Origin: Daucus carota subsp. sativus
Lineage: Eukaryota > Streptophyta > Magnoliopsida > Apiales > Apiaceae
Reading direction: 5' to 3'
DNA length: 64,000 nt
Assembly: GCF_001625215.2 (NCBI RefSeq)
Contig: NC_030383.2
Span: 58,890,949-58,954,948 of the forward strand
Positions 53,281-55,990 of this stretch are shown one piece after another; within the stretch, counting starts at the first letter, position 1; each line of letters starts with the position of its first letter. Below the pieces are notes generated by a model, which was not told the DNA's origin, did not search any database, and saw only the letters and a program-made list of their open reading frames with translations. A program made the position numbers and the translations under genes.

Positions 53281-55990
53281 CTAATCAAAGAGACTGAAGC
53301 CCATGTCCTGCAACAAATTATATAAAATCAAGTTAGAAACGTTATATTCTTAAAGCACAATATATATCCTATAGTTCTTTATCTTCTAAAAGTCTTTTAA
53401 AGAAAATGCAAGACTCACATCATCTGACTCTTCCTTCTCTTCAACTTTCTCCTCTTTCTTGGCTTCAGCAGCAGGTGCAGCGGCACCACCAGCCCCACCA
53501 GAAGCTGCGGCAGCAACAGCAACACCACCACCACCTGATGGTACAGACGCCAACTTTTCCCTTCCAGATGCAATCAATTCTGTGATGTCCTTTCCTTTAA
53601 CTTCAGAAAGTAGAAGCTCAATCCTATCATCATCAGCATCAGCTCCAACTGCAAATCCAACAGGCTTACTTGGTTATAACAAGAGATAACAAGACCATTT
53701 CATCACATGTCACAACATAATACTTTGGATGAAGAGAAACAGATGACTAAATTGTAAAAACAAACAGGCAACTGTAATATTTCCATTCACTAAGAAAGAA
53801 TATAAAGAATATTAAAGAACCTTTAAACAAATACTATATGTTTGAAATCATGCAACACAAATAGATGAAAGAGTTTTAAATAACATAAGAAGTGTCACTG
53901 GACAGAACAAACAGCAAAAGCTCAAGTCTCAGACATCCAAGGAAGGAACAGAGCAGCATAATCTCTCAAGCCTGGCGAAGGCGAAAGATCTTAGACGGCC
54001 ACTGCGAATGTTTCTGAGAAACAAGCCTTAGAATTCTCATCATCGAGAGGAGAAACTTAATAAAGCAAACTCAAGACTAAAAAGTAAACAGGAAATGGCA
54101 TGAATCAAGATGAAATAATCAATTCGATTAGAAAAAACAAGCAGCCAACAAAGTAAAAGATGACAAGATTGTAAATCAGGAGGGACCAAAAAATAAATTT
54201 ACATGATATATTCAAGACACACACACAGGCAAGCATAGAGATAGTTACATAAAGAATATAAATATAGAAGGTCTCAGACATCCAAGGAAGAAAAAGAGCA
54301 GCATAATCTCTCAAGCCTGGCGAAGGCGAAGATCTTAGGCGGCCACTGCGAATGTTTTGAGAAACAAGCCTTAAAATTGTCATCATCGAAAGCTAGAACT
54401 TTTATACTATGCTCAAGAATATTAAACAATATCAAACTAAACCATACAAGAGAAAATAAATATATTATATTCTAAATGAATGCCGACAAGAAAAGGGAGC
54501 CATCAAACTTAATAGTATAAACACGTTATAATTGACATTTCGTTATTTGTTACACTTTAAACATAGAGGCATGTAAACACATAGACAGAAAGAGAGAATT
54601 CTGGGGGTGTCTCAGACATCCAAGGAAGGAACAAAGCAGCATTATCTCTCAAGCCTGGCGAAGGCGAAAGATCTTAGACGGCCACTGCGAATGTTTCTGA
54701 GAAACAAGCCTTAGGATTCTCATCAGTGACAGTAGTTCAAAATTTTGGTTCTCAAACAATATCAAAATTACAATCCGTTTGAGCTAACAATGAAATTTAA
54801 TCTTTATATAATTTTTAATCAGCGACATCAACAGTAAAAAGTTAAAAAAAAGGCAAATATAAAATGAATTTCATGCCATGACCACTGCAGGGATTACAAG
54901 AATAGCAGTTTAATTGATAAAAAACTTCCAAAGACCACTAAATTCAATTAAAATAGGAAAAAACAAAATAAAATCTTCATTTTTGGTGGCAACGTTTATA
55001 CTATGAACATACATATATCTATCTCCTACAACAGATAAACATGCACATAGTAAATGATATGGACTGGGAATCTCAGACATCCAAGGAAGGATAAAACAGC
55101 ATTATCTCTCAAGCCTGGCGAAGGCGAAAGATCTTGGGCGGCCACTGCGAATGTCTCTGAGAAACAAGCCTTAACTAATATCATCACAGAACCCAGCCTT
55201 GACTTGAACCAACAAACAACTCTTCCAATTCACATGAGATCAAACAAAATGAATCCATTTGGACCATAACAAGACCAACTATGCAATTACACGTGCATAC
55301 ACATGGAAAAACACATATACGAAAATGAATACACTAGGGGTCTCAGACATCCAAGGAAGGATAAAACAGCATAATCTCTCAAGCCCGGCGAAAGGCGAAA
55401 GATCTTAGGCGGCCACTGCGAATGTCTCTGAGAAACAAGCCTTAACAAAAATCATCACCGACCCCACATCTTACTCCAACCATAATACAACTCACAAATC
55501 ACCACCTAATAACAATCCGCAAATTCACTCATAAACAAAAAAAAAATCAATAACCACAATTCAACATAACAAAACCAAGTCATCAATCCACAATCACACA
55601 TAATGACCCAATCTAATAATCATTTCAACAAGTTACCAATTGTCTCTCTCTCTCCCAATCTCTCCCTCCATCCCTCTCCCACTCTCTCCTACCTCCTCTC
55701 ACAACACACATCATTTCAACCAAACTAATAATCATTTCTACCGTCACACAATCAAATTGATAATGAATTCATGTCACATTTTCTTGTAATTATCTGTAGT
55801 AGTGACAATTCAATTCAATCCAATTCACAACAACACCACAATCACACATATATACAGATATACATACACATATACATACACATAAACAGCTACAAAAAGT
55901 ACCTGAGCCGAGAATGTTCTTCAAATCCTCAGCAGTAGGGCATGTATTCCCGCCAAGCACAGCCAACAAATAAGCAGCCACAACCTTCAT
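53281..55990 (-). CDS. RPP2: 60S acidic ribosomal protein P2
   Basis: Three exons (55903-55990, 53419-53648, 53281-53307) join in phase to 114 aa. The N-terminal dimerisation domain reads [49 protein letters not shown] and [14 protein letters not shown]. An Ala/Gly-rich hinge ([20 protein letters not shown]) follows, then the acidic tail [16 protein letters not shown], which is the conserved P-protein C-terminus that contacts elongation factors. Exon structure is identical in phase to the paralogue at 48.4-49.2 kb, so the pair arose by duplication. Intron 1 is very long (2254 bp) and holds five U14-like box C/D snoRNA copies in the same orientation. The promoter carries telo-boxes and site II elements typical of ribosomal-protein genes. 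Confidence 0.95.
53926..54046 (-). ncRNA. U14: U14 box C/D snoRNA, intronic copy 1
   Basis: On the minus strand: C box ATGATGA (54037-54043), guide CATTCGCAGT (54001-54010) and D box CTGA (53929-53932), with 115 nt from C to D box. The guide is complementary to the ACTGCGAATG segment near the 5' end of 18S rRNA, the hallmark of U14 domain A. U14 is needed for early 18S rRNA processing. This copy is the closest to the 3' splice site of its host intron. Confidence 0.85.
54271..54389 (-). ncRNA. U14: U14 box C/D snoRNA, intronic copy 2 (partly degenerate)
   Basis: C box ATGATGA (54380-54386), guide CATTCGCAGT (54345-54354) and D box CTGA (54274-54277) are kept. Compared with the other copies it lacks single bases in two places, one of them in the internal GTTTC/GAAAC hairpin, so it may be a weaker or decaying copy. 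Confidence 0.75.
54609..54730 (-). ncRNA. U14: U14 box C/D snoRNA, intronic copy 3
   Basis: C box CTGATGA (54720-54726; first base not the usual purine), guide CATTCGCAGT (54684-54693) and D box CTGA (54612-54615). A short terminal stem, TGTC with GACA, closes the ends. Confidence 0.8.
55070..55190 (-). ncRNA. U14: U14 box C/D snoRNA, intronic copy 4
   Basis: C box GTGATGA (55181-55187), guide CATTCGCAGT (55144-55153) and D box CTGA (55073-55076), with the same 115-nt C-to-D spacing as copies 1 and 3. Confidence 0.83.
55337..55464 (-). ncRNA. U14: U14 box C/D snoRNA, intronic copy 5
   Basis: C box GTGATGA (55452-55458), guide CATTCGCAGT (55415-55424) and D box CTGA (55343-55346). This copy has the best terminal stem, GGGGTC pairing with GACCCC just outside the boxes, as expected for box C/D maturation. 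It is the closest to the 5' splice site. Confidence 0.87.

Follow-up and report, generated by a model that had tools for sequence, protein, structure and literature searches.

Five copies of U14, a box C/D small nucleolar RNA (snoRNA), lie one after another within a single intron of a predicted gene for the ribosomal stalk protein P2 in carrot (Daucus carota subsp. sativus), in a stretch of 64,000 nucleotides (nt) of contig NC_030383.2 (positions 58,890,949 to 58,954,948; hereafter the window, numbered from its first base). All five copies are on the same strand as the host gene, and very probably they form a polycistronic cluster nested in the intron of a plant ribosomal-protein gene. The evidence comes from covariance-model searches, from the reading frame of the host and from the box and guide elements of the copies, as well as from a neighbouring P2-like gene that lacks the array.

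Five U14 copies in an intron of a P2 gene

Covariance-model searches with Rfam 15 identify five minus-strand copies of U14 (SNORD14, RF00016) within 53925-55463, which are named c1 to c5 from 5' to 3' along the host transcript (Table 1). At the gathering score (64 for RF00016), the search of the whole window returns four matches in total, all of them to SNORD14/U14 on the minus strand of this interval, and the remaining block, c4, is recovered by a permissive search of 53300-56300. In the 3-kilobase search the RF00016 E-values of the five copies range from 1.1e-16 to 2.1e-12. The first-pass annotation, made from the sequence alone, had described five U14 blocks of about 120 nt on the host strand; these are borne out, with outer coordinates one base off the Rfam bounds, and the covariance-model check that it had proposed places all five blocks in RF00016, four of them above the gathering score. 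Its estimates of the spacing between box C and box D (109-116 nt) and of the spacers between copies (about 155-345 nt) likewise agree with the measured values, which are 115, 114, 114, 112 and 114 nt for c1-c5 (both boxes included) and 146, 337, 216 and 221 nt between the Rfam bounds of successive copies.

The window contains the 10-nt guide A sequence CATTCGCAGT exactly five times, in each case inside a U14 block. With one mismatch allowed, there are seven matches (two outside the blocks) versus an expected 2.28, a number that none of 100 shuffles reaches, and a chance origin of the blocks is ruled out by the Rfam E-values together with the shuffles. On the minus strand of the window, a strict search for a RUGAUGA box with a CUGA box after it yields 12 pairs; seven fall within the P2 gene, and four of these seven are U14. 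The other three (53603-53706) combine one RUGAUGA box at 53706 with three possible CUGA partners and extend into P2 exon 2; they have no Rfam match and were not retained. The permissive Rfam searches also gave low-scoring matches to other snoRNAs (snoR9_plant, 21.3 versus a threshold of 43; SNORD26, 19.7 versus 44; SNORD123, 16.9 versus 45), all judged to be chance. The U14 pattern (guide A, gap, guide B and box D) was found at no locus in viral and genome contigs, as expected for a eukaryotic RNA.

The host, judged from its reading frame, is an intact gene for the 60S stalk protein P2. With all exon bounds taken from splice motifs and frame, the joined coding exons specify an intact protein of 114 amino acids that matches Pfam PF00428 (E 7.1e-27) and is closest to the acidic ribosomal protein P2 4v7e_Cs (E 1.2e-47, the best of 29 solved sequences). 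Within the host intron, 439 nt precede c1 and 276 nt follow c5. The array had earlier been assigned to intron 1 of the P2 gene; it does lie inside a P2 intron, the numbering holding for the coding sequence only, as a predicted intron in the 5' untranslated region (UTR; 56088-55999) precedes it.

Upstream of the P2 ATG are two telo boxes and three site II motifs, all inside the ranges illustrated for ribosomal-protein genes of Arabidopsis and rice in PMC3022908 (telo box 0-280 nt, site II 80-400 nt). Two or more telo boxes together with two or more site II motifs in those ranges are found at 5 of 2520 positions sampled in the window. By these motifs, the putative P2 promoter has the layout of plant ribosome-biogenesis genes, and PMC3022908 describes the telo box and site II motifs as shared by genes with intron-nested snoRNA clusters.

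Table 1. Positions of the U14 copies, the P2 host gene, its upstream motifs and the neighbouring paralogue in the window.
Feature	Position	Strand	Basis or remark
Tandem P2-like paralogue	48409..49218	-	tblastn of P2 against the window
P2 coding exon 3, tail DMGFSLFD and stop	53281..53307	-	reading frame
P2 coding exon 2	53419..53648	-	reading frame and tblastn
Host intron, 2254 nt, GT...AG, all five copies	53649..55902	-	exon junctions restore the P2 frame
U14 copy c5, 3'-most	53925..54048	-	RF00016, 64.2 bits
U14 copy c4, weakest	54270..54391	-	RF00016, 62.8 bits, below gathering score of 64
U14 copy c3	54608..54731	-	RF00016, 74.3 bits
U14 copy c2	55069..55192	-	RF00016, 77.1 bits
U14 copy c1, 5'-most	55339..55463	-	RF00016, 78.4 bits
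P2 coding exon 1	55903..55990	-	reading frame and tblastn
Putative 5'-UTR intron of P2 gene	55999..56088	-	splice motifs
Two telo boxes, AAACCCTA	56154..56192	-	motif starts 171 and 202 nt upstream of ATG
Three site II motifs, TGGGCY	56238..56327	-	motif starts 253, 318 and 337 nt upstream of ATG

Predicted pairing with 18S rRNA and the U14-free paralogue

In addition to the Rfam matches, the conserved elements of a box C/D RNA are retained throughout the array, with UGAUGA (box C) and CUGA (box D) kept in all five copies. Against fragments of 18S ribosomal RNA (rRNA), guide A has a 10-nt match in every copy, and guide B, which adjoins box D, forms 14 contiguous Watson-Crick pairs in c1, c2, c3 and c5. 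In c4, which has a C to T change at the guide edge, there are 13 such pairs, or 14 if the G-U pair that remains is counted. Across 300 single-base shuffles of c1, the longest match was at most 10 nt for the guide B target and at most 9 nt for the guide A target. Furthermore, all five copies carry a G at the fifth position before box D, opposite a C of 18S rRNA, as expected for a 2'-O-methylated cytidine (Cm). AtU14 is assigned to Cm416 in a table of PMC3511168, and the 13-14-nt match adjoining box D is the likely methylation guide. The earlier statement that the 10-nt guide defines U14 is incomplete in that the longer match next to box D had been left unmentioned. Directly after CATTCGCAGT, all five copies have GG in place of the UU of the Rfam consensus, and as a consequence the pairing of guide A with 18S rRNA ends at 10 nt.

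A built-in control is provided by the neighbouring tandem P2-like paralogue, which is free of U14. Its exons (49218-49131, 48777-48545 and 48441-48409) make up an open frame of 117 amino acids with an altered C-terminal tail (EPIMNLFGDD, without DMGFSLFD), and the 600 nt upstream of its ATG contain a single telo box and a single site II motif. The first coding intron of the paralogue is at the same position as the U14 host intron and is 353 nt long (49130-48778); it contains no UGAUGA, its similarity to the U14 intron is no greater than expected by chance (best E 1.2), and no U14 is found around the gene when 48300-49400 is searched permissively with Rfam. Between P2 and the paralogue, non-synonymous divergence (dN) is 0.20 and synonymous divergence (dS) 1.34 over 107 aligned codons (Nei-Gojobori method, near saturation). 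The array was either gained by one paralogue or lost by the other.

Copy quality, promoter use and history of the array

A number of observations weigh against the reading as an intronic cluster. Plant snoRNAs in general are described as mostly polycistronic, with intronic loci a minority, in passages of PMC5122169 and PMC8351944. Within the array, c4 scores below the Rfam gathering score (62.8 versus 64), and the strict box C, RUGAUGA, is present in four copies, c3 having CUGAUGA and being missed by the strict scan. The domain A pairing of 10 nt is also shorter than that of canonical U14, which is 13 nt. In the whole-copy folds a terminal stem appears in c1 and c2 only, with differing sequences; that of c1 has 6 base pairs (GGGGUC/GACCCC), and a run of 4 base pairs beside the boxes of c3 is absent from its whole-copy fold. 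The uninterrupted runs of pairs beside the boxes measure 6, 5, 4, 2 and 5 in c1-c5, and a run of 6 is reached by 505 of 5000 pairs of 16-mers drawn at random from the intron, so that no copy has a terminal stem that stands out by run length. The whole-copy folds do not clearly exceed shuffles in stability (energy z of -0.81, -0.85, 0.09, 0.88 and -1.42 for c1-c5). It is a serious possibility, somewhat short of an even chance, that only c1, c2 and perhaps c3 are fully working, while c4, and perhaps c5 too, would be in decay or inefficiently processed, with other loci providing much of the U14. In favour of such an unequal array are the confinement of the folded terminal stem to c1 and c2, the score of c5 just above gathering and the condition of c4, the most altered copy, which combines its low score with the guide B edge change and two missing bases (one from the internal stem, the other just ahead of guide A). 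The flank-only folds point the same way, with 0.02, 0.023, 0.04, 0.31 and 0.047 of 300 shuffles doing as well for c1-c5, although linker bases joined the pairing in c2, c4 and c5. However, c5 retains its boxes and guides and is 94% identical to c3, it equals c2 in run length (5), and weak terminal stems are common among working box C/D RNAs. That the copies are instead expressed from promoters of their own within the intron, independently of P2, is extremely unlikely. The Neurospora intronic U14 homologue has a putative upstream promoter (in part of PMC2780460), abundant plant snoRNAs including U14 are said in a passage of PMC7762058 to use small nuclear RNA promoter elements, and a TATA-like pattern has five matches on the host strand of the intron, though it also matches 176 times per strand in the AT-rich window. 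In contrast, the host intron contains no telo box, site II motif or exact plant upstream sequence element on either strand, the last of these being absent from both strands of the entire window. Both telo boxes stand upstream of the ATG, as do three of the four site II matches in the vicinity of the gene, the fourth being at 53303 in the last exon.

The copies fall into two groups, c1-c2 (92% identical) and c3-c5 (89-94%), with 86-87% identity between groups, and the members of each group are neighbours. Of the columns in box C, box D and the two guides, 1 of 34 varies, compared with 18 of 82 among the others between the boxes (Fisher p 0.0075, with gaps scored as changes and the functional set picked with the alignment in view), while in the flanks 17 of 20 and 14 of 16 columns vary. 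The conserved core proposed in the first-pass annotation is upheld by these counts, and as far as the alignment goes the pattern is compatible with tandem duplication of copies whose core is under selection. For the stepwise tandem duplication that was also proposed, the picture is divided: neighbouring copies do group together, but no clear homology is found among the spacers and 80-nt flanks of the copies. Four of 20 flank comparisons with single-base shuffles fall at or below 0.05 (0.003, 0.017, 0.017 and 0.040), and given the low complexity of the flanks these were not counted as clear homology. With no clear homology there, either the spacers may have decayed or the snoRNA alone may have been duplicated. 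Insertion of the snoRNA by itself, through retroposition or a similar process, in place of tandem duplication of a longer unit, would account for the similarity ending near the ends of box C and box D, and for spacers that are unequal in length and without clear homology. We nevertheless regard it as rather unlikely, given the grouping of neighbouring copies and the tandem paralogue, which also lacks intron similarity; since the paralogous introns are dissimilar at a dS of about 1.3, old spacers would be unrecognisable in any case. Gene conversion among the U14 copies may be an alternative history.

Elsewhere in the window, a Pfam scan covered 10 of 15 long open frames. On the plus strand, 3168-4136 encodes a plant DUF868 protein (PF05910), which along with the telo boxes is indicative of a plant genome, 17763-20201 is an open frame of 813 codons rich in pentatricopeptide repeats (PF13041), and 39579-41777 is an open frame of 733 codons with no Pfam match at 0.001, downstream of which a weak XS-domain match (42603-43052) falls below the cut-off. 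On the minus strand, two frames at 29893-31802 match the IPP transferase family PF01715 and are perhaps exons of one isopentenyltransferase gene, and a WD40 frame at 34217-35170 matches PF00400 above the cut-off, with partial matches to the THOC3 and WDR3 propeller models below theirs.

A proposed shared transcription unit and its known counterparts

Under the preferred reading of a polycistronic intronic cluster, RNA polymerase II would transcribe the P2 gene from the telo-box/site II promoter, which on position only would be shared by P2 and U14. Splicing would yield the P2 mRNA, and the excised intron, or pre-mRNA cut by an endonuclease, would be trimmed, leaving as many as five U14 box C/D RNAs under the protection of the C/D proteins. 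Roles of U14 in both the processing and the methylation of 18S rRNA are described in part of PMC7277114; here, guide A would pair with 18S rRNA in support of its processing, and guide B would direct one 2'-O-methylation (Cm416, Arabidopsis numbering). Several copies per intron would raise the yield of U14 per transcript. We infer each of these steps, from transcription and splicing to processing, assembly and function of the array, and the shared unit might thereby couple the supply of 40S and 60S subunits, as the first-pass annotation had proposed. By combining a protein of the 60S stalk with an RNA for 18S processing in one transcription unit, the locus would make a clear added case of a general principle that is already known, and the shortened domain A deserves to be flagged in plant U14. 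It is very unlikely that the gene serves U14 first, with P2 mRNA and U14 competing and the stalk protein supplied by the U14-free paralogue or by other P2 genes. If this were true, U14 would be cut by endonuclease from unspliced pre-mRNA, every cut transcript would be lost for P2, and gain or loss of the array after gene duplication would have divided the P2 and U14 duties.

Plant ribosomal-protein genes with snoRNA clusters in their introns, plant U14 genes arranged in clusters and the U14 copies in introns of vertebrate hsc70 were all known already. Human U14 copies also reside in RPS13 introns, and the plant U14 clusters of Leader and colleagues are reportedly those of maize and potato. The latter are cited in a passage of PMC7464842 as closely linked genes with polycistronic transcription (Leader et al., 1994); that citation mentions no protein host gene, whereas the carrot array has P2 as its host. 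No U14 in a P2 intron was found among the open-licence literature matches listed, which do not cover the key plant papers of 1994-2003. In rice, ribosomal-protein genes with intronic snoRNA genes or clusters account for 15 of an estimated 31 intronic loci (PMC3022908, in part), and the hosts of plant intronic snoRNAs are mostly ribosomal-protein or ribosome-biogenesis genes, whose loci can be polycistronic (PMC4660826, in part). The carrot array resembles these systems in that a single intron of a ribosomal-protein gene carries several snoRNAs, here five, on the sense strand. Unlike the rice clusters of PMC3022908, it repeats one snoRNA five times; U14 is absent from the text of that paper, and no P2 host is named in the corresponding parts of PMC3022908 or PMC4660826. 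Compared with vertebrate U14, of which three copies are located in hsc70 introns (PMC7277114, in part), and thus over several introns of a chaperone gene, the carrot P2 gene holds five copies in one intron of a ribosomal-protein gene. To these known systems the carrot locus adds a tandem P2 paralogue free of U14, a shortened domain A in all five copies and an unequal quality of the copies.
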